Below are positions 170 to 14,580 of a stretch of DNA of 64,000 nucleotides, one piece after another. Numbering within the stretch: position 1 is the first letter of the stretch; each line of letters begins with the position of its first letter. This DNA is from Falsiroseomonas bella (GTDB taxonomy: Bacteria; Pseudomonadota; Alphaproteobacteria; Acetobacterales; Acetobacteraceae): NCBI RefSeq assembly GCF_003173615.1, contig NZ_QGNA01000005.1:496001-560000 (forward strand), read 5' to 3'. The position numbers were made by a program, and so were the translations under genes. The notes under the pieces were generated by a model that saw nothing but the letters and a program-made list of their open reading frames with translations, made no database searches and had not been told where the DNA came from.

Positions 170-877
170 ATGGCCCTCGGCCTGAACACCAGCACCAACG
201 GTGCCGACTTCATCCCGCACATTCGCTACGACGCCCGCGCCGGGCGGCTATTCCGCGCCGATAGGGCGCAGGGCTCGGACGGGCGGTGGGAAACCACCAT
301 GGTGGACATCACCACCCCGCCGCCGCAGTTCCTGATGGATCTGGCGCAGATCGAGGTCGGCTGGCTGTCCTATGCCGGCGGCACGCCCGATCTGCGCATG
401 GTGCCCTTCGGAACGCCGCTGCCGCCGGTCCCGAGCAAGGATCACAAGCAGGGCTTTCGGGTCCGGGTCTATGCGCCGAAGCTGCTCGGCGGTCTGCGCG
501 AGTTCGCCTCCTCCGCCAAGGTGGCGATCGCGGCGATGGACGCCGTGCACAGCCAATTCGAGGCGGCGCCGGAGCGCGGCCAGGGGCTCGTGCCGGTGGT
601 GTCCTTCGTCGGCACGACGCCGGTCACGACGAAGACGCCGCAGGGCAGCAGCACGAACTACGCCCCGGTGTTTCGGATCGAGAAGTGGGTGACGCGGCCG
701 GCGGATCTGCCGATCGGGGCAGTGCCGACCGCGGCCACAGCGACGGCGTCCGCTCCCGCACAGCCTCCCGCCGCGCCGCCGCGTCACGTGTCGCCGCCGG
801 CGCCGGTGGCTCCGCCTGCGCCGGCGCCCGCCGCGGCACCGGCGCCCGCGCTCGCCACCCACGACACGGAGTTCTGA
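170..877 (+). CDS. Phage protein with SSB-like disordered acidic tail
   Basis: This 235-residue protein has a well-placed start: GAGGAG lies about ten bases before the ATG. Residues 1 to about 175 look globular. From about 185 to 228 the protein is almost only Ala and Pro, as in a disordered linker, and it ends in ATHDTEF, an acidic tip closed by phenylalanine. Bacterial and phage single-stranded-DNA-binding proteins have the same layout (core, low-complexity linker, acidic-Phe tip that recruits repair and replication enzymes). The gene stops one base before the start of the prim-pol/helicase gene, which supports a replication role. I do not recognise an OB fold, so the function is inferred from layout and position. 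A shadow-free hypothetical phage protein remains possible. Confidence 0.6.
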   Translation: MALGLNTSTNGADFIPHIRYDARAGRLFRADRAQGSDGRWETTMVDITTPPPQFLMDLAQIEVGWLSYAGGTPDLRMVPFGTPLPPVPSKDHKQGFRVRVYAPKLLGGLREFASSAKVAIAAMDAVHSQFEAAPERGQGLVPVVSFVGTTPVTTKTPQGSSTNYAPVFRIEKWVTRPADLPIGAVPTAATATASAPAQPPAAPPRHVSPPAPVAPPAPAPAAAPAPALATHDTEF

Positions 878-878
878 G

Positions 879-3101
879 ATGGACGGCACGGCGAGCCTGC
901 CGCCGCGCGACGGCGACGGGCTGATCTGCCCGCTGCCGGAGGCGCTGCGCGCGCTCGCCGCGCTGCCGCATTGGGTGATCTGGCGCTGGACCGAGGCGAC
1001 TCCGGGCAGCAAGCCCGACAAACCACTGTTCCGCGCCGGCGATCCCTGGCGGCACGCATCCACGCAGGACCCCGCCTCCTGGGACACGTTCGGCGCCGCC
1101 ATGGGCGCGGTGGCCGCGGCGGAGGCCGACGGCGCTGGCTACGTCCTGCGCGACGACCCGACACACATCTTTCTCGACCTGGACAACTGCCGCGATCCCG
1201 TCACCGGCGCGCTCTCCGACTGGGCGCTGCGGCTCGTCGAGGAGGCCGGCAGCTACGCCGAGGTCACGCCCTCCGGCCGTGGCCTGCGCATCATCGGCAC
1301 CAACGAGAGTCTCCGCGCCCCGGTGCATCGCCGCATCGCCATGCCGGCGGGCGGCAGCGTCGAGATCTTTCACCGCTGCCCCCGCTACGTCACCGTCTCC
1401 GGCCGCCTGCTGCGCGAGGCACCCGACGCGCTGCGCCCGATCTGCGACATCGCCGCCGATCTGCTGCTGCTGGCGCAGCCGACCGCAGCCACGACGCCCG
1501 ACGCGGCGCCGCCACGGTCGAACCCCGATCCTGCCGGCTCGCCGCAGGACATCGCCTCGGCGCTGGCGCAGATCCCGAACCCCGACCTGCCCTGGGACGA
1601 GTGGTCGAACATCGGCATGGCGGTCTGGCGCGCCTCGGCCGGCAGCGCCGCGGGCCTCGCCGCCTGGACCGCCTGGTCGGCAAAGTCGGGCAAGCACCAG
1701 GACGCGGCCTGCCAGGAGCGCTGGCAGCACTGGTTCCGCAGCCCGCCCGACCGCATCGGCTACGCGTCTCTGCATCGCCTTGCGCGCGAGGCCAATCCGC
1801 TCTGGGTGAAGCCGTCTCTGGTCACCGCCCTGATGCCCTCCGCCGCGGCGCCGACGCGCGCACAGGGCGCCTCGGCCGAGTGGGAGGGGGACGTGCCGCA
1901 CGCAACGCCCACCCCGCCCAGCGGCGCCCAGAACGCGCCCGTGGCCAGCCTCGTCGCGACCCCCTTCGACCCGGCCGACCTGGCGGCACTGCGCCCCCGC
2001 GAATGGGTCTACGGCCATTTCCTGATCCGGCGGTTCGTCTCCGTCCTCGGCGCGCCGGGCGGCACGGGAAAGACCGCCTACGCCCTCGCCGTGGCGCTCT
2101 CCGTCGCGCTCGGCCGGCCGCTGGTCGAGGAGCCGGTACACAGCCCGGGCCGCGCTTGGATCTACAACCTGGAGGACCCGCGCGACGAACTGCTGCGCCG
2201 CGTCCAGGCGGCGCTGATCGCCCACCGCATTCCCGCGACCGACCTCGCTGGCCGGCTGTTCCTCGACAGCGGCCGCGACCAGCCGCTCGTTGTCGCCGCG
2301 CGGTTGCCGGACGGCACCGTCGTCGCCACGCCCATCGTCGAGGCGCTGATCAAGGAGCTGCGGCGTCGGCAGGTGACGCTCCTGGTGGTCGACCCCTTCG
2401 TGAAATCGCACCGCCTCGAGGAGAACCGCAACGAGCAGATCGACTTCGCCGCCGCGCTCTGGTCGCGCGTCGCGGACGCCGCCGGCTGCGCCGTGCTGCT
2501 GGTGCACCACTTCCGCAAGGGCGGCATCGCCGGCGACGCCGACGCCTTCCGCGGCGCCTCCGCGCTGGTCGATGCGGCCCGTGCGGCGGTGGCGCTGCGG
2601 TCCATGGACGAGAAGGAAGCCGAGCGCTTCGGCCTCGACGAGGAGGAGCGTTGGTTCTTCGTCCGCGCCGATAACGCGAAGCTCAACCTCGCGCCGCGCC
2701 CGCTCGACGCCACCTGGCTGCAGCTGCGCTCCATCGCGCTGCCGAACGGCGATCATGTCCAGGCTATCGCGCGCTGGCGCCCCGCCTCGGTGTTCAAAGA
2801 GCTGACCCTCGCCGCATCCGCCGATCTGATCGAGCAGCTCGGCACGCCGCGCGAGGATGGGGAGCGCTGGTCCAAACGTAAGCAGGACAGCGAACGCTGG
2901 GCAGGTAGCCTCATCACCAAGAGCGTCGGCTGCACCGAAGCACAGGCGCGCGCGATTCTCGACGGCTACTTCGCGAGCAAGGCGCTCCGCACCGTCGAAT
3001 ACCAGAGCCCCAAGCAGCGCAAGCCGCGCATGGGGCTCGAACATGACCCGCAGGTCGTCGCCGGCATGCGGCTCCATGCGAAGGAGGACCACGACGAATG
3101 A
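879..3101 (+). CDS. Phage primase-polymerase / PriCT-2 / RepA-type helicase fusion
   Basis: This 740-residue replication protein has three parts. Residues about 20-190 resemble archaeo-eukaryotic primase-polymerase domains, with a DxD metal pair in FLDLDNC (D100, D102) and a TPSGRGLRI strand near residue 132. Residues about 220-300 match the PriCT-2 primase C-terminal domain. Residues about 370-600 are a RepA/AAA_25 ATPase with Walker A GAPGGTGKT (G391-T399), Walker B ending in D505 (LLVVDP) and an HH motif in LLVHHFRKG. The expected roles are primer synthesis or initiation plus DNA unwinding. It starts one base after the previous gene and overlaps the next by ATGA, so all three are probably translated together. 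The repeat cluster 0.3 kb downstream is the likely template. Function is confident; the exact primase chemistry is inferred. Confidence 0.88.
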   Translation: MDGTASLPPRDGDGLICPLPEALRALAALPHWVIWRWTEATPGSKPDKPLFRAGDPWRHASTQDPASWDTFGAAMGAVAAAEADGAGYVLRDDPTHIFLDLDNCRDPVTGALSDWALRLVEEAGSYAEVTPSGRGLRIIGTNESLRAPVHRRIAMPAGGSVEIFHRCPRYVTVSGRLLREAPDALRPICDIAADLLLLAQPTAATTPDAAPPRSNPDPAGSPQDIASALAQIPNPDLPWDEWSNIGMAVWRASAGSAAGLAAWTAWSAKSGKHQDAACQERWQHWFRSPPDRIGYASLHRLAREANPLWVKPSLVTALMPSAAAPTRAQGASAEWEGDVPHATPTPPSGAQNAPVASLVATPFDPADLAALRPREWVYGHFLIRRFVSVLGAPGGTGKTAYALAVALSVALGRPLVEEPVHSPGRAWIYNLEDPRDELLRRVQAALIAHRIPATDLAGRLFLDSGRDQPLVVAARLPDGTVVATPIVEALIKELRRRQVTLLVVDPFVKSHRLEENRNEQIDFAAALWSRVADAAGCAVLLVHHFRKGGIAGDADAFRGASALVDAARAAVALRSMDEKEAERFGLDEEERWFFVRADNAKLNLAPRPLDATWLQLRSIALPNGDHVQAIARWRPASVFKELTLAASADLIEQLGTPREDGERWSKRKQDSERWAGSLITKSVGCTEAQARAILDGYFASKALRTVEYQSPKQRKPRMGLEHDPQVVAGMRLHAKEDHDE

Positions 3102-3376
3102 GGAAGCTGATCACCCTGCCCGGGCGTCCCGATATCGGCAGCGTAGCCTTCGTGCAGCACCAGCGTTTCGAGTGCGTCGAGATCCGACCGCACATAACGC
3201 GCACCGGGCGCGACGTCGAACTCTCGATCTGGATGGGTGGCTGCGCGGATTGCGGAGCTCCATTCGACTTGGTGACGCCGCGGCGCGCCGGTCCAGTTCG
3301 AGTAGATCGGCGCCGCTGCGCGGAGCACCGCGATCCAAAGCGCCGGGTCAAGGTGCCTGCTGGGGCATCGGCATGA
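3098..3376 (+). CDS. Small phage protein with Cys/His zinc-site-like motif
   Basis: The 92-residue product begins in a 4-base ATGA overlap with the helicase gene, with AAGGAGGA about ten bases upstream, so expression is coupled to replication. Its middle contains GGCADCGAPF, a CxxC knuckle, followed about 25 residues later by RRCAEH. Together these could hold a zinc ion. The C-terminus is basic (DPKRRVKV), which would suit nucleic-acid contact. I do not recognise a family. Reading frame, ribosome site and coupling make it a real gene; a DNA-binding accessory role is only inference. Confidence 0.65.
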   Translation: MRKLITLPGRPDIGSVAFVQHQRFECVEIRPHITRTGRDVELSIWMGGCADCGAPFDLVTPRRAGPVRVDRRRCAEHRDPKRRVKVPAGASA

Positions 3377-3393
3377 GCGGTGCTCCGAGTGCT

Positions 3394-3620
3394 TGCGCCA
3401 CTGACCTGCGCCACTGGCACATCACTGGCGCAGCGGTGCGGCGACCGGTTGCCGGGGAGGGTTGCGCCTCTGCGCCACTGGCAAGGCCCATGCCCTCATG
3501 CCCCCTAGGGGGCATGGGGCAGTGGCGCAGTGGCGCAGCCCGGACCGGTGGGGCAGCGGCGCAGGATCCAGGGCGGATTTCGAGGCATCGGCCGCCATCC
3601 AGTGGCGCAGCAGTGGCGCA
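3394..3620. repeat. Iteron-like 10-bp repeat cluster, candidate phage replication origin
   Basis: The 10-mer CAGTGGCGCA or its complement TGCGCCACTG occurs repeatedly in this gene-free stretch. Exact copies start at 3394, 3407 and 3471 (complement) and at 3520, 3528, 3600 and 3611 (direct). One-mismatch copies start at 3423 and 3554. Copies left of the 3497-3516 palindrome are mostly in one orientation, and those to the right are all in the other. An eighth exact copy lies inside the next gene at 3798-3807. Arrays of short repeats around a palindrome next to a primase/helicase gene are typical of iteron origins, for example the primase/RepA-helicase plasmids of the RSF1010 type. An operator array is the main alternative. 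Confidence 0.6.
3497..3516. promoter_or_regulatory. Perfect 20-bp palindrome at centre of the repeat cluster
   Basis: CATGCCCCCTAGGGGGCATG is a perfect inverted repeat with no spacer. Imperfect symmetry continues outward (CCCT before, GGGG after). It sits where the flanking 10-bp repeats change orientation. It could be an initiator or repressor dimer site, or a cruciform in a replication origin. There is no T-run, so it is not a typical terminator. Confidence 0.55.
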
Positions 3621-3641
3621 GATCACCACGGAGGCAGAAGC

Positions 3642-4271
3642 ATGAGTTGGGCGACAACCGATCGCTCCGGCATCACCATGGCCATCCAGGGCCTGGTGCA
3701 GTCCGTCGACCTGCTGACCGACAGCTTGGAGCGCAAATGGGGCGTCGGCCGGCTGCGCCTGCTGGTCGACGACGCGCTGCGCGAGCGCTTCGACCGGCAG
3801 TGGCGCAAGTGGCAGGCCGCCTATGCCGCGCAAGACCTAGATGCCGTGCGGGCACACTCGGAGGCGATGCGCCGCGCCTGGGACGCGCTGGACCAGGCGG
3901 CCACGGCGGCGGGTCACACGCCGACGGCGCCGGAGGTGTGGGAGACGCGGATGCCGGACGGCACCGTGCTCGCCATCGTGCGGAGCCCCGCCGAGCAGCA
4001 CGTCCTGGCGCGCGCCGCGCGGCACGAGGGCGACAGCCGCGCTCGCGAGGTGTGGTCGCTGGACGAGATCGGCCGCGTCATCTGCGCCTGGGAAGGCCGA
4101 AACTGGGTGGACGCCATTCGCGCGGAGTTCCCTGGAGCGACGGTGGAAGCACTGCGGCTGACGCCGCGCGGCGCGGAGTTCGACTGGTTGCGCGGCGACG
4201 AGATCCCGTTCGGCCACAACCACGGCGACACGCACGCCCACACGCCTCTGTCGCGGAGTGCTGCACGATGA
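3642..4271 (+). CDS. Hypothetical phage protein, helical N-terminus
   Basis: I chose the ATG at 3642 because GGAGG lies nine bases upstream. The frame stays open further left, but that extension would translate the repeat cluster. The 209-residue product has a charged, helix-rich first half (about residues 15-95, likely coiled coil) and a mixed second half ending in a His-rich segment (GHNHGDTHAHT) that might bind metal. One exact copy of the 10-bp repeat lies in its coding sequence at 3798-3807. It ends in an ATGA overlap with the next gene. No family is recognised. Position suggests an accessory replication or regulatory role. Confidence 0.6.
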   Translation: MSWATTDRSGITMAIQGLVQSVDLLTDSLERKWGVGRLRLLVDDALRERFDRQWRKWQAAYAAQDLDAVRAHSEAMRRAWDALDQAATAAGHTPTAPEVWETRMPDGTVLAIVRSPAEQHVLARAARHEGDSRAREVWSLDEIGRVICAWEGRNWVDAIRAEFPGATVEALRLTPRGAEFDWLRGDEIPFGHNHGDTHAHTPLSRSAAR

Positions 4272-5042: not shown

Positions 5043-5313
5043 AATGGACAGTAGCCAATCGAGCCATGAGCATGAGCTCCGCTCGCTGCGCTCACATCAA
5101 GTGGCAAAGCGCGATGTCGAGGCAACGTGCCCTCAGCGCAATTGCTGTCCTTCCGCGCGGCCGCGACATCTGTAAAGATTTTCGACGCCCCGACAGGCGT
5201 TCTGGCTGACGCATTCGACTTGCTCGGAAGCGGGACTATGCGCAAATATTGTTTGTCAGCCTGAGGGCTGATTGTCGGTGCTACGGCACAAACTGGCAGC
5301 GCGGGAGGAATCC

Positions 5314-6210
5314 ATGAGCGGTCGGAACGGCCACCCGAGGAAGCGGACCCTCGCAGATGGCGCCGGCTGGGTGCGCGGTCTTCTGCTGGCGGCGGCGCTC
5401 GCCATCTCAGGCGCAAACTCCGCCGAGGCCGGCTACTGGAACGTCTTCAACATCGAGGGCGAGAACTCGATCTCGGCCGGAATCGTCACCTACGCCACCT
5501 TCTCCGACATGCTCGCCGACACCAATCGGACCGGCGTGTTCGAGCCCAACACCGCCGGCTTCGGCCGAAACGTCGTCGGCGGCGGCTCGGACGGCACCAC
5601 CTATTGGAACGTCTTCAACATCGAGGGCGAGAACTCGATCTCGGCCGGGATCGTCACCTACGCCACGCTCGCCGACATGCTCGCCGACACCAATCGGACC
5701 GGCGTGTTCGAGCCCAACACCGCCGGCTTCGGCCGAAACGTCGTCGGCAGCGGGTCGGACGGCACCACCTACTGGAACGTCTTCAACATCGAGGGCGAGA
5801 GCTCGATCTCGGCCGGGATCGTCACCTACGCCACGCTCGCCGACATGTTGGCTGACACCAATCGCACCGGCGTGTTCGAGCCCAACACCGCCGGCTTCGG
5901 AAGAAACGTCGTCGGCAGCGGCTCGGATGGCACCACCTACTGGAACGTCTTCAACATCGAGGGCGAGAGCTCGATCTCGGCCGGGATCGTCACCTACGCC
6001 ACGCTCTCCGACATGTTGGCTGACGTCAATCGCACCGGCGTGTTCGAGCCCAACACCGTCGGCTTCGGCCGCAACGTCGTCGGCAGCGGGGCCGTGATCT
6101 CTGCAGAAGTGACCATTCCTGAACCCCTCAGCCTCTCCCTGTTCGCCTCGGGCATCCTGACGCTCACGCTTCTGCGGTGGGGGCGACGGACTGTTTCGGC
6201 GTCCAGCTGA
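5314..6210 (+). CDS. PEP-CTERM sorting-domain protein with four 56-residue tandem repeats
   Basis: The ATG at 5314 is preceded by GGGAGGA; an in-frame TTG at 5272 has no such site. The 298-residue product has a signal peptide (about 1-39, ending NSAEA) and four copies of a 56-residue repeat from Y41, each starting YWNVFNIEGE and containing TGVFEPNT. The last copy is cut short near residue 259. The tail is a PEP-CTERM signal: IPEP at 268-271, a hydrophobic helix, then RWGRR. Such proteins are exported, processed at PEP by an exosortase and kept in the envelope or released into exopolysaccharide. There is no exosortase gene here, so one elsewhere in the host would be needed. It lies between phage replication genes and phage methyltransferases and looks like cargo. 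Confidence 0.85.
   Translation: MSGRNGHPRKRTLADGAGWVRGLLLAAALAISGANSAEAGYWNVFNIEGENSISAGIVTYATFSDMLADTNRTGVFEPNTAGFGRNVVGGGSDGTTYWNVFNIEGENSISAGIVTYATLADMLADTNRTGVFEPNTAGFGRNVVGSGSDGTTYWNVFNIEGESSISAGIVTYATLADMLADTNRTGVFEPNTAGFGRNVVGSGSDGTTYWNVFNIEGESSISAGIVTYATLSDMLADVNRTGVFEPNTVGFGRNVVGSGAVISAEVTIPEPLSLSLFASGILTLTLLRWGRRTVSASS
5434..6090 (+). repeat. Four tandem 168-bp coding repeats
   Basis: Units begin at 5434, 5602, 5770 and 5938, exactly 168 bp (56 codons) apart. The last lacks its final five codons. Units are almost identical in DNA as well as protein. Units 1-2 share GENS where units 3-4 share GESS; unit 4 alone has ADVN and NTVG. The shared changes suggest stepwise duplication. The array could expand or contract by slippage. 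Confidence 0.92.
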
Positions 6211-6526
6211 CCGCCACCATTACCGGGTGCCTAAAGCTGCGCCGTCACCGCTTCAGGTGCGCTGTTACAATTCACCCTGTAGCGGCGCGCGAATCAGCGG
6301 GGCTATGACCACGCTACGTCGAGACGATGCGACGCGGCGGTGGCGAACGAGCCACTGAGCCAGACAATCCGGAGCGTGGCTCGCGAGCCGCAGGGTCCTT
6401 CCTGGCCCCGCTGATGCGGGGGGCGGAAGCGCGCAAGGTTTCTAGCGCCAGGCCAGTTTTCCAGGTTGCCAGCGTCGCGCAGTTGCCAGCCGCGCCGGCC
6501 ACCATTCCACGATCACGCAGGTGCAG
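6211..6526. other. 316-bp spacer between PEP-CTERM and first methyltransferase gene
   Basis: I see no convincing gene here. A plus-strand frame opens at 6327 but runs into the methyltransferase gene in the wrong frame. Two copies of GTTGCCAG lie near the right end (about 6464-6490), and the same word recurs in both orientations inside the methyltransferase linker near 6965-7020. They could be sites for the ParB-like domains or only compositional. The promoter for the methyltransferase pair should lie here. Confidence 0.4.
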
Positions 6527-7993
6527 ATGCCCCAGGCCCCATGGTCTGCGAGCGCCGTCGAGGCGCGCGCGGTCGCCGCGCTGCTGCCCTATGCCGGCAA
6601 CGCGCGCACGCACTCCGCCGAGCAGGTGGCGCAGATCGCGGCCAGCATTCTCGAGTTCGGCTTCGTCGCGCCGGTCCTGGTGGACGAGTGCGGCGAGATC
6701 ATCGCCGGCCACGGCCGGCTGCTGGCCGCGAAATCCCTCGGCCTCGAGACCGTGCCGACCATCGTCCGCGCCGGCCTGACCGAGGCGCAGAAGGCAGCGT
6801 ATCGACTGGCGGACAACCGCATCGCGTTGAACGCCGGCTGGGACGAGGCGCTGCTGGCGGCCGAGGTCGCGAGGCTGCAGGAGATGGGCGGCGTCGACCT
6901 GGCGCTGACCGGCTTCGACGGCGCGGAGATCGAGCGCCTCCTGGCCGGCCTGGAAACCGAGGCCGGCAACCTGGCGACGCCGGCAGTTGCCAGCGGCGCC
7001 GAGCCGACTCCTGGCAACCAGCCGGACGTGGAGGGCGCGGAGCCGGCAGAGGATCCCGCGGATGCCGAACCGGAGCCGCCGCGCCAGGCCGTCGCGCGGG
7101 TCGGTGACATCTGGCTGCTGGGTGAGCACCGGCTGGCCTGCGGCGACAGCACGAACCGCAGCACTGTGGCGCGCGTCATGGCTGCGGATCGCGCGGCGCT
7201 GCTCTTCACCAGCCCGCCCTACGGAAACCAGCGCGACTACACCACGGGCGGCGTCTCGGATTGGGACGCGCTGATGCAGGGCGTGTTCCAGCATGTCGAC
7301 GCGGCGCTCGGCCGCGACGGCCAGGTGCTGGTGAACCTCGGGCTGATCCATCGCGAGGGGGAGTGGCAGCCCTATTGGCAGGGCTGGCTGGACTGGATGC
7401 GCGGCCAGGGCTGGCGCCGCTTCGGGCTGTATGCGTGGGATCAGGGCCCCGGCCTGCCCGGCGACTGGAACGGCCGCCTGGCCCCCGCCTTCGAGCTCGT
7501 CTTCCATTTCAACCGAGAGGCGCGGCAGGCGAACAAGATCGTGCCGTGCAAGTGGGCCGGAACGCCGAACAAGGGCAGCGGGCTCCGCGCCGCCGACGGC
7601 GAGGTGAAGGCCTACACCCACATCGGCCTGCCGGTGCAGGAGATGCGGATCCCGGACAGCGTGCTGCGCATCACGCGCCACAAGGGCCGCGGCATCGAGA
7701 CCGAACACCCGGCGGTGTTCCCCGTCGCGCTGCCGGAGTTCCTGATGCGCGCCTACACGGACGAGGGTGACGTCGTGTTCGAGCCGTTCGCGGGGAGCGG
7801 CACCACCATCCTGGCGGGTCAGCGCACGGGCCGGCGCGTCCGCGCAATCGAGCTCGCGCCGGCGTATGTCGACTTGGCGATCGCCCGCTGGTGCATGCTG
7901 CACCCCGACCTGCCGGTGACGCTGGCCGACGACGGCCGCGATTACGACGCCGTCGCCGCGGCGCGCGCGGAGGCGCTGGCCGATGCTGCCTGA
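6527..7993 (+). CDS. ParB-like domain fused to DNA methyltransferase, SPPY type
   Basis: The 488-residue product has two domains. Residues about 10-140 are a ParB/Srx-like N-terminal domain (NARTHSAEQVAQIAASI, then IIAGHGRLLAAKSLG, then RLADNRIALNAGWDE). After a Pro/Glu-rich linker, residues about 190-480 form a methyltransferase with catalytic S229-P-P-Y and S-adenosylmethionine motif FEPFAGSG (F418-G425). That order is the beta class. SPPY is usual for N4-cytosine enzymes, while DPPY marks N6-adenine enzymes, so cytosine is the better guess. An in-frame GTG at 6521 is an alternative start. It overlaps the next, paralogous gene by 11 bases. Phages use such orphan enzymes to protect or mark their DNA. 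No cognate nuclease gene is seen. Confidence 0.85.
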   Translation: MPQAPWSASAVEARAVAALLPYAGNARTHSAEQVAQIAASILEFGFVAPVLVDECGEIIAGHGRLLAAKSLGLETVPTIVRAGLTEAQKAAYRLADNRIALNAGWDEALLAAEVARLQEMGGVDLALTGFDGAEIERLLAGLETEAGNLATPAVASGAEPTPGNQPDVEGAEPAEDPADAEPEPPRQAVARVGDIWLLGEHRLACGDSTNRSTVARVMAADRAALLFTSPPYGNQRDYTTGGVSDWDALMQGVFQHVDAALGRDGQVLVNLGLIHREGEWQPYWQGWLDWMRGQGWRRFGLYAWDQGPGLPGDWNGRLAPAFELVFHFNREARQANKIVPCKWAGTPNKGSGLRAADGEVKAYTHIGLPVQEMRIPDSVLRITRHKGRGIETEHPAVFPVALPEFLMRAYTDEGDVVFEPFAGSGTTILAGQRTGRRVRAIELAPAYVDLAIARWCMLHPDLPVTLADDGRDYDAVAAARAEALADAA

Positions 7994-9263
7994 TCTCCGC
8001 GTCGAGATGATGCCGGTGGCATCGCTCGCGCCGTACGCCGCGAATGCCCGGCTGCATCCGACCGAACAGGTGGCGCAGCTGGCGGCATCGATCGGTGAGT
8101 TCGGGTTCAACGTCCCGGTGCTGGTGGACGACGCGGGCGTGCTGATCGCCGGCCACGGTCGCGTACTGGCGGCGAAGGCGCTCGGGCTGGAGGAAGTGCC
8201 GGCGATCCGGCTCGGGCATCTCACGGAGGCGCAGGCGCGGGCCTTCCGGCTGGCCGACAACCAGCTGGCGCTCAACTCCACCTGGGACGAGAGCCTGCTC
8301 GCCGCCGAGCTCCGCGCGCTGCGCACGGACGAGTTCGACCTCGGCCTGATCGGCTTCGACGGCGCGACGCTCGACAGGCTCCTAGGTGAGGCTGTGCCAG
8401 AGGCCCCGGCCACACCCGCCGGGGATCCGGACGCGCCGGCGCCCGAGCCACCAGAGGCTCCCGTCACCCGGCCCGGCGACCTCTGGCTGCTCGGCCCGCA
8501 TCGGCTGCTGTGCGGCGACGCCACCAGCGCGGCGGACGTCGCGCGGCTGCTGAACGGCACGCGGCCGCACCTGATGACCAGCGATCCTCCGTATGGGGTG
8601 AACTACGATCCCGAGTGGCGGAACGAGGCCGGCGTCTCGGCCACGATGCGGACCGGGAAGGTGGCGAATGACGACCGCGCCGACTGGCGCGACGCCTGGG
8701 CGCTGTTCCCGGGCGACGTGGCGTATGTCTGGCACGCCGGCGTGCACGCGCGCACGGTGATCGAGAGCTTGGAGGCGGCTGGCTTCGCGGTGCGCAGCCA
8801 GATCATCTGGGCGAAGCCACGCTTCGTGCTCGGGCGGGGCGACTACCACTGGCAGCACGAGCCCTGCCTCTACGCCGTGCGTAAGGGCGCGACCGGCCAC
8901 TGGCAGGGCGCGCGGGACCAGGCGACGCTCTGGCCGATCAGCACGGCGGGCGACGAGGATGCCGCCACCGTCCACGGCACGCAAAAGCCGGTGGAGTGCA
9001 TGCGGCGGCCGATGGTGAACAACAGCGCGGTGGGGGATTTGATCTACGAGCCGTTCTGCGGCAGCGGCAGCACCATCATCGCGGCAGAGACGACGGGGCG
9101 CGTCTGCTACGCGATGGACATCGACGCGCGCTACGTCGATGTCACCGTGCGGCGATGGCAGGCCTTCACCGGGCGGGCCGCGGTCCTGGCCGGCGAGGAC
9201 CGGCTGTTCGACGACGTCGCCGCAGCGCGTGGTATGCAGGGGGCAGCGCAGGCCGTCGTCTGA
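7983..9263 (+). CDS. ParB-like domain fused to DNA methyltransferase, DPPY type
   Basis: This 426-residue paralogue of the preceding protein has the same plan. A ParB-like domain covers about residues 5-130 (IIAGHGR-like IAGHGRVLAAKALG), followed by a Pro-rich linker and a beta-class methyltransferase with D201-P-P-Y and YEPFCGSG (Y355-G362). DPPY indicates N6-adenine methylation. The two genes overlap by 11 bases, so both enzymes are made from one message. They probably modify different bases or sequences. It ends 11 bases before the stop of a convergent gene. The family is confident; target sequence and ParB-domain role are unknown. Confidence 0.87.
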   Translation: MLPDLRVEMMPVASLAPYAANARLHPTEQVAQLAASIGEFGFNVPVLVDDAGVLIAGHGRVLAAKALGLEEVPAIRLGHLTEAQARAFRLADNQLALNSTWDESLLAAELRALRTDEFDLGLIGFDGATLDRLLGEAVPEAPATPAGDPDAPAPEPPEAPVTRPGDLWLLGPHRLLCGDATSAADVARLLNGTRPHLMTSDPPYGVNYDPEWRNEAGVSATMRTGKVANDDRADWRDAWALFPGDVAYVWHAGVHARTVIESLEAAGFAVRSQIIWAKPRFVLGRGDYHWQHEPCLYAVRKGATGHWQGARDQATLWPISTAGDEDAATVHGTQKPVECMRRPMVNNSAVGDLIYEPFCGSGSTIIAAETTGRVCYAMDIDARYVDVTVRRWQAFTGRAAVLAGEDRLFDDVAAARGMQGAAQAVV

Positions 9264-9274
9264 CGCCTCGCCTT

Positions 9275-10051
9275 CTAACCGGTGCTGTCCAAGATTAGTC
9301 CCGTTGTCTCGCCTGGCTTGTCCCAGTGCGGGAAGTGCCCGCAAGCCTCAAACCAGTGAATCCGGGCATCCGGGAAAAGTGCCTTGGCGCGGCCTGCCTG
9401 GACCGGGAAGCACACACGGTCCTGTCGGCCCCAGCCGATCACCAACCTGCCAGGAAGGGATCTCGGTGCCGCGCCCTCCTGGGCTGGTCCATAAGCGAGG
9501 CTGCGCAGCAACTCGTCGAAGGAGGGCGCGGCCGCGTAGCTGCGCATCTCCTCGAGTGTCACTACCGGCGAAAGCCGCCATGGCCGCGGCGAGAATTGCG
9601 GGAACAGCAGCGTCCGGCCGATCGCGCTGCCGGTGATGGCCGGCATGATCGGCTGCAGCAGCCGGACCAGCCGGATCGACACCGCGATCGAGGTGTAGAA
9701 GAACCGGCGCTCCCATCCCTGCCAAAAACCGCCGGGGTCGAGCGAAACGGTGGACCCCACCACGCCGCGCCGTGCGAGCTCCAGCACGAGCCGCGCGCCC
9801 ATCGAGCTGCCAACGGCATTGACCCCGGTCAGGCCCTCGGCGGCGAGGAACTCGGTGACCGCCCGGGCAAGCGTGTCGATGGACACCTCACCCTGCAAAG
9901 GCGGGCTTTCGCCAAATCCGGGGAGATCGACGGCGATGACCTCTCGCTCGCGGGCAAGGTCGTGGAGGATCGGGCCCCAGGATCGCCATGAGCCGCCCAG
10001 GCCGTGGATCAGCAGCAGGGGCCTTCCCCGGCCAAGCCGGACGGAGTGCAT
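9275..10051 (-). CDS. Alpha/beta-hydrolase, probable prophage cargo
   Basis: The 258-residue product shows a classical alpha/beta-hydrolase fold. It has the oxyanion HGLGG (16-20), nucleophile elbow GSSMG with S83, an acid in GRQDRV and the catalytic His in ACGHFPHWDKP near the C-terminus. Substrate class cannot be told: esterase, lactonase or C-C hydrolase are all possible. It has no signal peptide, so it should be cytoplasmic. It is transcribed against the surrounding phage genes, facing the methyltransferase pair tail to tail. Such single genes in reverse orientation are typical of phage morons that benefit the host. The start at ATG 10051 fits domain length; the open frame extends upstream. 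Confidence 0.82.
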   Translation of the reverse strand: MHSVRLGRGRPLLLIHGLGGSWRSWGPILHDLAREREVIAVDLPGFGESPPLQGEVSIDTLARAVTEFLAAEGLTGVNAVGSSMGARLVLELARRGVVGSTVSLDPGGFWQGWERRFFYTSIAVSIRLVRLLQPIMPAITGSAIGRTLLFPQFSPRPWRLSPVVTLEEMRSYAAAPSFDELLRSLAYGPAQEGAAPRSLPGRLVIGWGRQDRVCFPVQAGRAKALFPDARIHWFEACGHFPHWDKPGETTGLILDSTG

Positions 10052-10137
10052 GGCACTCAACGGCCGCACTCCACGCGCGCAACGATCGCATTCTTGGACA
10101 GCATCGAGAGGCTTCCCTGTCAAAGGCGAACTGGAAC

Positions 10138-10169
10138 GCCGGCCGGGACCTGAACGTTGCCCGGCCGGC
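10138..10169 (-). terminator. GC-rich hairpin downstream of the DUF3489 gene
   Basis: GCCGGCCGGG (10138-10147) and CCCGGCCGGC (10160-10169) form a perfect 10-bp stem with a 12-base loop. It lies 40 bases past the stop of the minus-strand DUF3489 gene and ahead of the hydrolase start. No U-tract follows, so it may slow or stabilise RNA rather than terminate alone. Confidence 0.4.
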
Positions 10170-10209
10170 CAAGATCGTAGCCGCGGCGCCGCCGGGCGCC
10201 GCACCCCAC

Positions 10210-11094
10210 TCAGCCGGTGATGCGGTACACCGTGTAGGAGCCCCGAGCGCCTTCCTTGTTCGGGCCGACCTGGCGCACCCGCTCCAGCACCTCGACCGCG
10301 TGGCCCTTCTTCTTCAGCCCGGCGAAGAACCCGCGCACCGTGTGCTGCTGCCAGCCCGTCGCCTCGCAGATCTGCGCGATGGTGGCGCCCTCCTCGCGGC
10401 GGAGCAGGGCGAGCACCGCCTCCTGCTTCGTCCCCTCGCGCGGCTTGCGCTTGGCGCCGGCCTCCCGTGTGGCGCGGGGCGGCTTGCCGGCGAGCGCGGC
10501 GCGGAGGGCCTGCATCGGGCCGTCGAGGGCGGTGATCATGTCTGCTTCGCGGTTGGCCTCGTCGTCCCAGGCAGCGAGCACCGCGGCGGCGGCGGCGCGC
10601 AGACTGGTGCGCGGCGCGGGCGTGGCGAGGGCGGCGTCCAGCAAGGCGAGGTCCTCGGCGCGGTCGCCCGCACCGGGCGCCGCGGGCGCGCCTTGGGCGG
10701 CTTCCGTCTCCGGGGCGTCCTCCCCGCTCGTGGGCGCCGTGTCCGCGTCCGTCCCGGCCGCCTGCGCGGCGGCGTGGCGCTCGGCGTTGCGGCGCAGGAT
10801 CGCCGCCTCGCTCTGCTCGTCCTCCTCCGGCGCGTCGCCTGCGTTCGAGTCGATGCCGATGGCGCGCAGCCCGTCGTCGGTGATCTTCAGCAGCATCTCC
10901 TCGCCGTCCACCGTCCACTTTGCGATGGCGTCGTAGGCCGGGCGGTGCACCGCAATCACCAGGTCCTGCTTCAGTAGCGCCTGCGCCACCTTCTGGCGGG
11001 CTCCGGCGGGCAGGCGCTCGGGCGGGTAGGCCAGGTGCTCTGGGTGCTGCGCGGCGGCGGTGAGGATCGCGGCCTGGGTGTCGGTGAGCTTCAT
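10210..11094 (-). CDS. DUF3489 domain-containing phage protein
   Basis: The 294-residue product has a globular N-terminal domain (1-75), a long Ala/Asp/Glu-rich disordered middle (about 85-195) and a C-terminal DUF3489 domain (about 220-292). The last contains KQEAVLALLRREEGATIAQI and GWQQHTVRGFFAGLKKKGH, a winged-helix pattern with a clear recognition helix. DUF3489 proteins are common in alphaproteobacterial phages and are thought to bind DNA. GGAG lies nine bases before ATG 11094. It is transcribed away from the terminase genes, so the 186-bp region between them holds two divergent promoters. A regulator of late genes is an attractive guess. Confidence 0.85.
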   Translation of the reverse strand: MKLTDTQAAILTAAAQHPEHLAYPPERLPAGARQKVAQALLKQDLVIAVHRPAYDAIAKWTVDGEEMLLKITDDGLRAIGIDSNAGDAPEEDEQSEAAILRRNAERHAAAQAAGTDADTAPTSGEDAPETEAAQGAPAAPGAGDRAEDLALLDAALATPAPRTSLRAAAAAVLAAWDDEANREADMITALDGPMQALRAALAGKPPRATREAGAKRKPREGTKQEAVLALLRREEGATIAQICEATGWQQHTVRGFFAGLKKKGHAVEVLERVRQVGPNKEGARGSYTVYRITG

Positions 11095-11144
11095 CGTCGA
11101 GGTCTCCGGTTCCGCACCCGAACAGCCGGGTGCTACCGCCCCGA

Positions 11145-11170
11145 GCCCCGCCGGCAGGGCCGGTCGGGGC
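11145..11170. promoter_or_regulatory. Strong hairpin in the divergent DUF3489/terminase control region
   Basis: GCCCCGCCGGC (11145-11155) and GCCGGTCGGGGC (11159-11170) pair over eleven base pairs with one bulged T and a 3-base AGG loop. It sits between the divergent starts at 11094 and 11281. It could be an operator or an attenuator in the terminase leader. No T-run follows. Confidence 0.35.
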
Positions 11171-11280
11171 AGATGCTACGTCTGCGCATCGCGTGACGGA
11201 GCATTCGCGCTGTGCCGCGCGCCAGCCAAGCGCCAACAGCGCGGCCCGGATTGCGTTCTTCGAGGGGGCTGGATCAGATC

Positions 11281-11844
11281 ATGATCGCTGCCGCGCAGCC
11301 GGGCCGCGTGGCCTCGCAGCGCGAGGTGGCGCGCCGCCTCGGCGTTTCCCACACGGCGCTGCAGAAGGCGCAGCGCGCCGGCCGCATCGCGCCCGAGGCC
11401 GATGGCGCTTGGGACGTGGAGAAGATCCGCGCGCGGCTGGCTGAGAGCAGCGATCCGACGCGGAAGACTGCTGCCTTCGTCGCACCGGCACCACCGCGGC
11501 CGGTCTCGCCCCCGATCGCGGCGTCTGCGCCCGATCCGCTGCCGCGCGCTGCCGGCAGCACGTTCCACGACGCGCGCACGGCGAACGAGGTGCTGAAGGC
11601 GCAGGAGCGCCGACTGCGGCTCGACGAGCGCAAGGGCAAGCTGGTCGACAAGGCCCGCGCGCTGCTCCTGGTGCACCGTCTCGCCAAGGAGGAGCGCGAT
11701 GCCATCCTCGCCTGGCCGGCCCGCGTGGCTGCCGAGATGGCGGCCGAGCTCGGCGTCGATGCGCATCGGCTGCAGACGATGATGGACACACGCCTGCGCG
11801 AGCATCTTGCGGCCCGGCACGATGTCCGGGTGAGCGTCGGCTGA
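11281..11844 (+). CDS. Phage terminase small subunit-like protein
   Basis: Starting at ATG 11281 the product is 187 residues. Residues about 8-45 hold a helix-turn-helix (ASQREVARRLGVSHTALQKA) that would recognise the packaging site, then a Pro/Ala linker. Residues about 100-165 are helical with KGKLVDKARALLLVHRLAKE, as in Nu1/DNA-packaging small subunits of gpA-type phages. It overlaps the large-subunit gene by one base (TGATG). A longer form from 11212 would add a low-complexity extension and seems less likely. The role is to bind phage DNA and load it onto the large subunit. Confidence 0.75.
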   Translation: MIAAAQPGRVASQREVARRLGVSHTALQKAQRAGRIAPEADGAWDVEKIRARLAESSDPTRKTAAFVAPAPPRPVSPPIAASAPDPLPRAAGSTFHDARTANEVLKAQERRLRLDERKGKLVDKARALLLVHRLAKEERDAILAWPARVAAEMAAELGVDAHRLQTMMDTRLREHLAARHDVRVSVG

Positions 11845-13808
11845 TGGCGGGCGAGCATCTCTTGGAGGAGCTCGGCCGCTTCGACGGCGACGCCGAGATC
11901 CTGCAGGCCTGGCGCGACGGCATGGCGCCCGAGCCGGCGCTGCTGGTCTCGGAATGGGCGGACAAGCACCGCGTGCTCGGCAGTCGGGGTTCGGCGGAGC
12001 CCGGCCCATGGCGCACCGTGCGCACGCCGTATTTGCGCGAGATCATGGATTCGCTGTCGCCGGCGCAGGCCGCGCGGCGCGTGGTGTTCATGAAGGGCGC
12101 GCAGGTCGGCGGCACGGAGTGCGGTAATAATTGGATCGGCTACGTAATACATCATGCACCCGGCCCGATGCTCGCGGTGCAGCCGACGACGGAGCTGGCG
12201 AAGCGCTTCTCCGACCAGCGCATCGACCCGCTGGTGGAGGAGACACCAGCGATCCGGGAGCGCGTCGCGCCCGCGCGCAGCAGAGATTCGGGCAATCGGC
12301 AGCTCTCGAAGGAGTTCCCTGGCGGGCAGCTGGTGATGACCGGCGCCAACAGCGCCGTCGGCCTGCGCTCGATGTCGGCCCGCTTCCTGTTCCTGGACGA
12401 GATCGACGCCTATCCCGGCGATGTCGAGGGCGAGGGTGACCCGATCGCGCTGGCCGAGGCGCGCGCGCGGACCTTCGGCTGGCGCCGGAAAATGCTGCTG
12501 GTCAGTACGCCGACGATCGCGGGCCTGTCGCGGATCGAGCGCGAGTATCTCGCCACCGACCAGCGGCGCTACTTTGTGCCCTGCCCGCATTGCGGCCACC
12601 GCCAGCATCTCCGTTTCGAGCGCCTGCTCTGGGACGAGGGCGAGCCGGAGACGGCGCGGTATCTCTGCGAGGATTGCGACGGGGCGATCGGCGAGCAGCA
12701 CAAGGCGGCGATGCTGGCCGGAGGCGAATGGCGGGCCACGGCCACGGCGACGGACCCGCACGCGATCGGCTTCCACATCTCGGCGCTCTACTCGCCGCCG
12801 GGCTGGATGCCCTGGTCCGAGATTGCACGGCTCTGGCTCGCGGCGCAGGGCGACGACCGGGCGATCAAGACCTTCCGGAACACCGTCCTCGGCGAGACCT
12901 GGCAGGAAGCGGGCGAGGCGCCCGACTGGCAGCGACTCTATGACCGCCGCGAGCACTGGCCTGCGGGCACGGTGCCGATGGGCGGGTTGCTGCTGACAGC
13001 CGGCGTCGACGTGCAACGGGATCGCCTCGAGGCGAGCCTCTGGGCCTGGGGCCAGGACCGGCAGTCCTGGCTGGTCGAGCACCGCGTGCTCGCAGGGAAC
13101 CCCTTCGAGGCGGCGGTGTGGGAGGAGTTGCGGCTGCTGCTGGGCGAGACCTGGCGGCACGCCAGCGGGCATCGGCTGCCGGTGGCCATGGCGGCGATCG
13201 ACAGCGGCGACGGCATGACCACAGCGGAGGTGTATTCGTTCGTGCGCCGGGCTGGTGCCGGCCGCGCCATCGCCGTGAAGGGCCAGGACGGGCTGCGCGC
13301 TGCGATCGGCCAGCCGGCCGCGACGGAGGTTCGGCGGAACGGGCGGAAGATGGGCGGTCTGAAGGTCTGGCCGGTGGGCTCGTCCTTCCTGAAGGGCGAG
13401 ACCTATGGCTGGCTGAAGCTGGAGCGGCCCACGGAGGAGAGCGGCGATCCGTTCCCGCCGGGCTACGTGCACCTGCCGCTCCACGCCGCCGGCGAAGAGT
13501 TCTGCCGCCAACTCACCGCGGAACAGTTGGTGGCTCGGGCGGGGCGCAACGGCTTCCGCCGCCTCGAATGGGTCAAGACGCGCGAGAGGAACGAGGCGCT
13601 GGACTGCCGCGTGTATGCGCGTGCCGCCGCAGCCGCCCTCGGGATGGATGGCTGGGGCGAAGGTCGCTGGGCGCGCATGGCCGATGCGCTGTCGCTGCCG
13701 GCGGCCGAGCTTCCCACCGGCGGGAATGTCGCGCCGCTGTCGCCGGCCGCGTCCGACGCCCATCGCCCGCGCGGCTGGCTCGCGCCGCGCTCGGGCTGGC
13801 TGCGCTAA
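11844..13808 (+). CDS. Phage terminase large subunit, GpA family
   Basis: The 654-residue product matches lambda GpA-type packaging motors in length and motifs. The ATPase has a Walker A-like segment KGAQVGGTE (84-92) and Walker B FLFLDEID (D185, E186). A zinc knuckle follows (C247, C250, C275, C278). The C-terminal nuclease region begins near GVDVQRDRLE and continues through the acidic AAIDSGDGMTT. It cuts concatemeric DNA and pumps it into the prohead. The small subunit lies directly upstream and a gpW-like joining protein follows. There is no sign of damage in this gene, although the next large phage gene is truncated. Confidence 0.95.
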   Translation: MAGEHLLEELGRFDGDAEILQAWRDGMAPEPALLVSEWADKHRVLGSRGSAEPGPWRTVRTPYLREIMDSLSPAQAARRVVFMKGAQVGGTECGNNWIGYVIHHAPGPMLAVQPTTELAKRFSDQRIDPLVEETPAIRERVAPARSRDSGNRQLSKEFPGGQLVMTGANSAVGLRSMSARFLFLDEIDAYPGDVEGEGDPIALAEARARTFGWRRKMLLVSTPTIAGLSRIEREYLATDQRRYFVPCPHCGHRQHLRFERLLWDEGEPETARYLCEDCDGAIGEQHKAAMLAGGEWRATATATDPHAIGFHISALYSPPGWMPWSEIARLWLAAQGDDRAIKTFRNTVLGETWQEAGEAPDWQRLYDRREHWPAGTVPMGGLLLTAGVDVQRDRLEASLWAWGQDRQSWLVEHRVLAGNPFEAAVWEELRLLLGETWRHASGHRLPVAMAAIDSGDGMTTAEVYSFVRRAGAGRAIAVKGQDGLRAAIGQPAATEVRRNGRKMGGLKVWPVGSSFLKGETYGWLKLERPTEESGDPFPPGYVHLPLHAAGEEFCRQLTAEQLVARAGRNGFRRLEWVKTRERNEALDCRVYARAAAAALGMDGWGEGRWARMADALSLPAAELPTGGNVAPLSPAASDAHRPRGWLAPRSGWLR

Positions 13809-13822
13809 CAGGGAGGGCGAGC

Positions 13823-14059
13823 ATGGATCCGACCGTCCTCGCCTGGGCGCTGGCGCAGCCGGCCGGTAGCCGGGCGGCCGCACTCGCGGCGGCCTACACC
13901 GGCGGCACCACGCGCGTGACCTTCGACGGGCGCACCGTGGAATACCGCAGCCTGGATGAGCTCGGCCGGGCACTGGCGGTGCTGCGCGGGGCAGAGATGA
14001 CGGCAGCCCGCCGCCCGTCCGTCACGCTGGCCTGCTTCCCCCGCGGGGGAAGCAGGTGA
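13823..14059 (+). CDS. gpW-like head-tail joining protein
   Basis: This 78-residue product lies between terminase and portal genes, where lambdoid phages encode gpW. GGGAGGG precedes the ATG by five bases. The segment TRVTFDGRTVEYRSLDELG is typical of gpW, with a beta hairpin then a helix. gpW plugs the portal after packaging and allows tail attachment. The stop overlaps the portal start (TGATG). Confidence 0.78.
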   Translation: MDPTVLAWALAQPAGSRAAALAAAYTGGTTRVTFDGRTVEYRSLDELGRALAVLRGAEMTAARRPSVTLACFPRGGSR

Positions 14060-14580
14060 TGGGCCGGCTGCGAGATACGTGGAACGCGCTGCGCGGCTAC
14101 GCAGCGGCGCAGGACAGCCGTGCCTCCGCCTGGGCGCCCTCCGCCGGCAGCGCTACCGCCGAGGTCGGGATGGCCGCGGCGACTGTGGCGCGCCGCCCCC
14201 GCGATGCTGTGCGCAACGATCCCTATGCCAGCCGCATCGTCGATCTGTGGACTGGCAATGCCGTCGCGCCCCGGTATCACGACGCGCTGGCCGGACGCGG
14301 CACACAGCCGCGCGTGGCAGCGTTGGGCAGCGGCTGCGACGCGGACGGCCGGCTCGACCTCTACGGCTTGCAGGCGCTGGTGATGCGGGCCGTCGTCGAG
14401 AGCGGCGAGTGCTTCGTCCGCTTCCTGATGGCGGAGCCCTCGCCGGCAAACCCGATCGACTTGCGGCTGCAGGTGCTGGAGCACACTGCGCGGCTATCGC
14501 AGGCACCCACCGCAGTCGACTATAGAGACGCGGCGCCAATGCCACGACAAGTCAGTGCCCACCAAGCACCAGCGTCTTGA
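14059..14580 (+). pseudogene. Truncated phage portal protein gene (lambda GpB family)
   Basis: The first about 140 residues look like the N-terminus of lambda-type portal proteins: DAVRNDPYASRIVDLWTGNA, then an ALVMRAVVESGECFVRFL helix and an LRLQVLEH strand. Portal proteins of this family run to about 500 residues. Here similarity stops near 14480, the remaining residues look random and the frame ends at 14580, about a third of normal length. The end overlaps the 3' end of the opposed HlyD-family gene. The missing part, and all head and tail genes expected next, are absent. A deletion or recombination junction therefore lies between about 14480 and 14552. The protein could not form a portal ring. 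Confidence 0.82.

Follow-up and report, generated by a model that had tools for sequence, protein, structure and literature searches.

The window analyzed here is a stretch of 64,000 nt from Falsiroseomonas bella (positions 496001–560000 of its contig, in a genome of 5.94 Mb). On its plus strand it carries the gene of a 740-aa PrimPol-helicase, a putative replication initiator (879–3101), with matches to PriCT_2, AAA_25, NrS-1 PrimPol, and RSF1010 RepA. Downstream lie a conserved 92-aa ORF (3098–3376, plus strand), a gap that holds an iteron array and forms the putative origin region (3377–3641), and the gene of a 209-aa protein (3642–4271, plus strand), relatives of which come after the array with certain long helicase forms. 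The preliminary description had placed the array in a gene-free stretch just after the replication protein; the gap is gene-free, and it is kept in five relatives, but the 92-aa ORF intervenes. Neither this ORF nor the 235-aa protein encoded just upstream of the helicase (170–877, plus strand) matched a family in Pfam, PHROGs, or NCBIfam, and no RepC family was found among the neighboring window genes scanned with the same three collections. The 235-aa protein has the position of the ssDNA-binding gene in the CRP phages, a likeness of place only: comparison with the CRP-811 protein showed no similarity (E 0.17), and kinship with the ssDNA-binding protein of the CRP phages was rejected. The 92-aa ORF contains a CADC motif and a later cysteine and possibly encodes a small zinc-binding protein.

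These genes belong to a prophage element that starts with a large serine recombinase and spans window coordinates −6379 to 14580 (locus L042 together with the window); the IMG/VR copy of the prophage also stops at 14580. The element looks like a prophage remnant. At its end lies a 174-aa ORF that covers just the first 136 of 354 positions of a portal family, and because of this truncated portal-like ORF the window copy may be inactive. When att repeats were sought, the two flanks compared shared no repeat longer than 13 bp. Elsewhere in the element, two consecutive overlapping genes (6521–7993 and 7983–9263) both encode an N6/N4 DNA methyltransferase fused to a ParB_N-like domain; for the second gene, the Pfam match to ParB_N falls under the cut-off. 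Among the phage genes there is also a tandem repeat (5433–6089; 168-bp unit, 3.9 copies, 95% match) inside an ORF (5272–6210) that has only doubtful Pfam matches.

The iteron is the 10-mer CAGTGGCGCA. As the preliminary description stated, eight exact copies lie within 414 bp (3394–3807), together with three, rather than the two reported, one-mismatch copies. Left of the perfect 20-bp palindrome CATGCCCCCTAGGGGGCATG (3497–3516), which is present as described and has a variable center, are exact minus-strand copies at 3394–3403 (exact in all five relatives), 3407–3416 (altered in L031), and 3471–3480, a one-mismatch plus-strand copy at 3423–3432 (CACTGGCGCA; exact in L029), and a one-mismatch minus-strand copy at 3463–3472. 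To the right are exact copies at 3520–3529, 3528–3537, 3600–3609, and 3611–3620 and a one-mismatch copy at 3554–3563, all on the plus strand. The reported orientation thus stands: four of the five iterons left of the palindrome are on the minus strand, and all to the right are on the plus strand. The 3520 and 3528 copies do overlap, by 2 bp, and this pair has a mirror in the overlapping left-hand pair 3463/3471. The last exact copy (3798–3807, plus strand) is coding, within the 209-aa gene, and is absent from L030, L031, and L122, though present in L029 and L121; we take it as coincidental and ruled it out as an array member. The array proper is therefore 3394–3620.

Across the window there are 24 sites with at most one mismatch to CAGTGGCGCA, compared with 11.8 on average and 21 at most in shuffles, and 11 of these 24 fall inside the 414 bp. 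Genome-wide we counted 28 exact copies, eight of them in this stretch, and 29 copies of the reversed motif as a control; with just 20 exact copies outside this stretch in 5.94 Mb, a mobile or dispersed repeat was ruled out. The inverted iteron pairs flanking the palindrome, together with outer arms, make up a conserved core of 126 bp (3440–3565), supported by identity to five relatives and by its fold: computed as DNA, it forms a large stem-loop 3′ of the gene (−51 kcal/mol, z −6.2). We found no A+T-rich unwinding stretch, A+T content being 17%–40% per 30 bp across 3340–3700.

The 740-aa protein combines three parts. Residues 6–247 (894–1619, plus strand) are a PrimPol part, matched by phmmer to NrS-1 PrimPol (6a9w, E 7e−18) and poorly modeled by AlphaFold. 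They are followed by a RepA-type helicase part of RecA fold (about residues 365–613; 1971–2717, plus strand), identified by AAA_25, by 1g8y, and by Foldseek: residues 369–613 match RSF1010 RepA (1g8y, E 3.5e−18), which is also the top structural match (1olo, E 7.5e−15), and the nearest solved helicase relatives are RSF1010 RepA and DnaB. Six PDB sequence hits of the protein did not include the RSF1010 primase. The third part, a C-terminal winged-helix domain (residues 644–737; 2808–3089, plus strand), is the putative iteron reader. AlphaFold models it as helix, bridge, helix, helix, strand, wing, strand, and helix, with block pLDDT 93–98 for residues 641–730. Submitted alone to Foldseek, this domain matched winged-helix proteins (TFE, PadR, MarR, and Orc1), none with E below 0.001, and its profile gave no convincing match among PDB sequences.

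We then compared the locus with its relatives, the closest named ones being Roseomonas and Neoroseomonas. Among 12 loci found with the 740-aa protein in named genomes, the array is present in three (L029, L030, and L031; 83%–91% identity), and the other nine have no cluster of the 10-mer. The 126-bp core occurs at 90%–100% identity in five of 397 family genomes, the source genome included; these five are the genomes whose helicase is at least 77% identical, G095 being a partial hit, and 22 more family genomes have short core matches only. Array and palindrome are kept in all five aligned relatives (L029, L030, L031, L121, and L122), in which the core is 89%–98% identical, compared with 68%–88% for the three neighboring coding stretches compared. 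The palindrome of L122 carries a compensated change, one of its stem pairs being altered on both sides.

To search from the motif alone, we scanned IMG/VR with TGCGCCACTG-N25..45-CAGTGGCGCA. The scan returned 27 stretches, one of them the window's own prophage, and all 26 other contigs (nine groups at 90% amino acid identity) encode a homologue of the helicase, 31%–35% identical over the ATPase and C-terminal part. In each of the 26, the cluster lies 3′ of the helicase gene on the same strand, with the nearest exact copy 2–392 bp and the farthest 482 bp past the stop codon. Spacing varies between contig groups; the 10-mer itself is constant. A scan with the reversed motif gave two contigs, with no such helicase in their fetched stretches. 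Among 385 genomes of the class, the inverted pair occurs in two, the source genome and G430, and the fetched G430 locus has no helicase. L099, L100, and L084 also have a small palindrome between the inverted copies, its sequence varying from group to group. The preliminary description had named as refuting outcomes an equal abundance of the 10-mer elsewhere in the chromosome and a lack of conservation beside homologous helicases; the 10-mer is rare elsewhere, and the array is conserved beside the helicase in 5/5 close relatives and 26/26 other viral contigs, so the candidate phage origin withstood both tests and is well supported by comparison.

To ask how general this arrangement is, we surveyed 113 loci: the best 80 of 521 IMG/VR loci flagged by a protein profile search and 33 genome loci (L032–L038 and L048–L073, with L040 and L039, which is cut off, excluded; L048–L073 are 26 of 30 loci returned, less four of the window's own type). 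These gave 90 non-redundant loci, 87 of them testable. At 62 of the 87, the number of repeated 8-mers in the 300 bp past the helicase stop codon put this window among the top 5%, and at 56 of those 62 the cluster was strictly above every other window tested; upstream, in the 300 bp before the gene, such a cluster occurred in 0 of 79. The remaining 25 loci have no top-5% cluster after the gene, so the rule that an array follows the helicase is not universal. The commonest 8-mer is present in 4–12 copies in the loci kept; motifs vary among loci, many sharing a core like NNTGGCGC. At Acetobacteraceae and sphingomonad ATPases of 35%–49% identity the 10-mer itself is missing, though related motifs accompany many of them. 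Searched against the 385 class genomes, the C-terminal profile gave four matches at E 1e−5, one being the source genome.

Palindromic structure recurs in part of the family. Of 104 loci, 20 have CCC(N0–3)TAGGG or its complement in the first 350 bp 3′ of the helicase, three have it in the next 350 bp, and none has it in six other 350-bp bins; the window's own copy falls in the second bin because the 92-aa ORF intervenes. Hairpins with arms of at least 9 bp occur in 17.8% of 101 downstream windows and in 1.5% of 2254 others. The helicase type is also carried, with a Toprim protein, by a 31.5-kb circular plasmid of Methylobacterium, pVL1_6, where the module is the sole replication set recognized among the ten proteins scanned of 39 annotated; unlike pVL1_6, the plasmid of L216 has repB and repC as well.

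Cultured Roseobacter phages of the CRP group allow the protein and its motif to be compared between related phages. In the same place, CRP-811 and CRP-823 carry ACTACAAA arrays, and CRP-821 and CRP-831 carry TGTATAAA arrays. Between CRP-823 and CRP-821, which differ in motif, the helicases are 99% identical in the primase and ATPase parts (95% in PriCT) and 72% identical in the C-terminal 130 residues. Between phages with the same motif the pattern is the opposite: the C-terminal part is 98% identical between CRP-811 and CRP-823 and 99% between CRP-821 and CRP-831, and the primase parts are just 80% and 78% identical. At the DNA level, CRP-823 and CRP-821 are 86%–99% identical up to helicase position 1880, 59%–80% over the C-terminal domain and array (1881–2380), 82%–99% over the next 500 bp, which hold a gene for a 190-aa protein, and at most 65% beyond. 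Because domain and array are adjacent, their joint exchange in these phages could be linkage alone; the 190-aa neighbor, too, is slightly closer within motif groups (93% and 96% identical) than between them (88%–93%).

A partial Mantel test covered loci other than the CRP phages. The commonest 8-mer occurs at least four times in 73 of 102 loci examined, CRP phages included, and leaving these out gave a set of 69 loci. Motif distance correlated with C-terminal distance given the ATPase (r 0.30, permutation p 0.0005), whereas its correlation with the ATPase given the C-terminal domain was r 0.03 (p 0.23); the loci are related, so these p-values are optimistic and overstate independence. Taken together, these comparisons point to motif variation tracking the C-terminal winged helix of the helicase rather than its ATPase.

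At the residue level, the column with the highest excess mutual information on the two bases before TGG, among those tested in 350–734, is residue 669, glutamine in the window protein (codon 2883–2885, plus strand). It is followed by 667, 662, 484 (fourth, in the ATPase), 670, and 666; in the AlphaFold model the covarying loop sits right before the helix starting at about 671. Mean excess information is 0.33 for C-terminal columns and 0.26 for ATPase columns. Of the 25 most informative columns, 17 fall outside residues 655–740; that many ATPase columns also rank high is likely among related sequences. A G directly precedes TGG at 21 of 24 loci with Gln669, compared with 5 of 42 loci with other residues, three more loci having no clear base. 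The exceptions are thus five loci without Q that have the G and three Q loci that do not.

This association was examined in new data, 55 non-redundant IMG/VR loci drawn from the best 80 of 272 flagged, of which 52 were used (two lacked sufficient downstream DNA, and a third lacked a recognizable loop). Where the residue is Q, GGTG outnumbers ACTG at 21 of 22 loci; where it is R, ACTG prevails at 11 of 16 and GGTG at four, with one tie (Fisher p 1.6e−5, tie excluded; here too, relatedness among the loci makes the value optimistic). Loops one residue longer were misread by the fixed offset, and read by eye they give GGTG with Q (read as T or A) at six of seven loci and ACTG with R (read as S) at two of five, with two ties. 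Two single loci, their loop residue read as G and L, fit neither class. All four alphaproteobacterial plasmids chosen among the highest-ranking of 92 hit records carry a loop Gln together with repeats of the AGGTG type, the arrays being strong in L215 and L218 and weak in L216 and L217 (commonest 8-mer three times). Among three new genome loci, L220 agrees with the code, L221 agrees weakly, and L222 disagrees; L222 has a TTGGCGGA array and a CCCCCTTACTACGTAAGGGGG palindrome 3′ of a helicase with a different loop. There appears, then, to be a one-residue loop code in which Gln669 goes with G 5′ of TGG and Arg mostly with C, T, or A.

We consider it likely, on these comparative grounds, that the array serves as a phage origin and that the adjacent PrimPol-RepA-type helicase binds it through its C-terminal winged helix. 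The array would be the cis half of a replication initiator-origin pair: the winged helix would bind the inverted CAGTGGCGCA iterons and thereby place helicase rings on either side of the central palindrome, the RepA-type rings would open the DNA there, the palindrome would perhaps be extruded as a hairpin and used as a priming site, and the PrimPol part would make the first primers for host polymerases. Binding, strand opening, and priming of this kind are probable by analogy with SaPI Rep and pRN1, and origin activity itself is inferred. The computed support consists of a conserved array in a fixed position, motif switching with the C-terminal domain, a code that held in new data, and, for part of the family, a palindrome at the center. 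In the prophage, cumulative GC skew reaches its minimum at 6781, away from the array; the skew rises across the array in all four close relatives looked at and in 28 of 43 other loci (p 0.17).

Among known systems, the helicases of SaPI Rep and Cch2 are of other types (SF3 or MCM-like AAA+), whereas the helicase here is of the RSF1010 RepA type and, in the window, PrimPol-fused. According to one study, the C-terminal domain of SaPI Rep reads iterons directly 3′ of its gene (PMC7581432). SaPI Rep-ori and Cch2 of pattern 2 SCCmec resemble the pair proposed here in joining an initiator helicase, a C-terminal reader of short iterons (a putative one in our case), and an origin directly 3′. The best reading is that our pair would work like SaPI Rep-ori with a different helicase. 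Its layout agrees in that iterons lie 3′ of the helicase gene in the 62 of 87 loci, whereas the window has the 92-aa ORF between. The helicase of the alpha protein of satellite phage P4, too, differs in type from the window helicase. Like the initiator proposed here, P4 alpha is a single protein that has a primase, a helicase, and a domain for binding the origin, where repeats are found, but its primase is of Toprim type (PMC4234260). The same article describes a stem-loop 3′ of the PrimPol-helicase gene that pRN1 requires, in an origin without iteron structure according to the authors (PMC4234260). There, pRN1 ORF904 and phage BIP-1 share with our protein the union of PrimPol, helicase, and C-terminal winged helix and a stem-loop just 3′ (PMC4234260), whereas their helicase is SF3 and ours is a RecA-fold RepA type accompanied by iterons (the 4–12 copies of an 8-mer). 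A precedent for joint exchange of domain and iterons comes from the RepA_N modules of the Vibrio satellites PLE, whose DNA-binding domain and iterons swap as a cassette, as PMC8263062 reports; that domain is N-terminal, the iterons are about 30 bp, and the protein family, judging by its name, is another one.

The preliminary description drew a parallel to RSF1010 and proposed a similar initiation mode. The RepA homology of the helicase bears out the first part, and iterons with short hairpins occur in both systems. To our knowledge, RSF1010 RepA has no winged helix; here, by contrast, PrimPol, helicase, and winged helix form one protein, and the primase part matches NrS-1 PrimPol. Where RSF1010 has a RepB′-type primase with ssi hairpins, the window has a palindrome, and the six PDB sequence hits include no RSF1010 primase. 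At RSF1010 oriV, as summarized in PMC4234260, three proteins (RepA, RepB′, and RepC) act, RepC being the iteron binder. The initiation mode is not clearly shared: with the helicase's own C-terminal winged helix favored, no separate RepC-like binder is indicated. NrS-1 PrimPol (6a9w) is homologous in its N-terminal catalytic part, and the opening lines of the NrS-1 paper abstracts make no mention of an iteron origin.

The array might instead be an operator, its iterons serving as repressor or activator sites for the replication genes while replication starts elsewhere. Iteron-binding initiators often repress as well, and group B contigs such as L099 (4205–4370), L100 (2101–2153), and L084 (2437–2489) have an antisense TTGACA-TAAATT/TAAAAT pair whose 17-bp spacer contains a copy of the motif, an operator-like placement. 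This promoter-like pair was, however, noticed in group B only and by eye; the array lies 3′ of the helicase, ahead of differing genes; and up to 12 copies with a central palindrome exceed what an operator needs. We regard a purely regulatory array as improbable; that the array doubles as an operator is possible, most of all in group B.

It is still less probable that a small phage protein, the 209-aa one or another, binds the iterons as a RepC-like initiator, as in RSF1010, and recruits the helicase. Relatives of the 209-aa protein do come after the array in the window group, in the CRP phages, and with other long helicase forms, and one lies downstream in 3/3 group A/B loci, but across the survey only 9 of 90 loci have one downstream and 81 have no detectable member in the fetched stretch, so we judged it unlikely as a general iteron binder. 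Moreover, the 190-aa proteins of CRP-823 and CRP-831 are 93% identical despite the different iterons of these phages, and motif variation follows the C-terminal part of the helicase. Least credible is an RNA element, an attenuator or antisense RNA in the 5′ leader of the 209-aa gene whose stem the iterons merely form: the strong fold, computed as DNA, and the compensated change in L122 would suit it, but copies occur in both orientations and beyond the stem, the 10-mer is fixed even though its spacing varies from group to group, and an Rfam search gave just two miRNA matches far under the gathering score.

With the helicase as iteron binder, a broader proposal, which we hold to be somewhat more probable than its opposite, is that these loci represent a widespread and undescribed class of phage initiator: a RepA-type hexameric helicase, PrimPol-fused in some members, with its own origin-binding winged helix, a swappable domain-iteron cassette, and a readable amino-acid/base code. 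No earlier description of the array or of the helicase-iteron pairing was found among the literature matches listed. Named hosts, IMG/VR contigs apart, are nearly all alphaproteobacteria. If the proposal is correct, the protein-DNA code would set one loop residue against one or two bases, for which the cultured CRP phages provide natural cassette-swap pairs of origin specificity, and RSF1010-type helicases would be linked to initiators that, as in SaPI and pRN1, consist of a single protein. The origins of hundreds of uncultivated phages could then be located and their motif predicted from the protein alone, making origin and initiator readable from sequence for many phages and prophages and for certain phage-like plasmids, together a large group.
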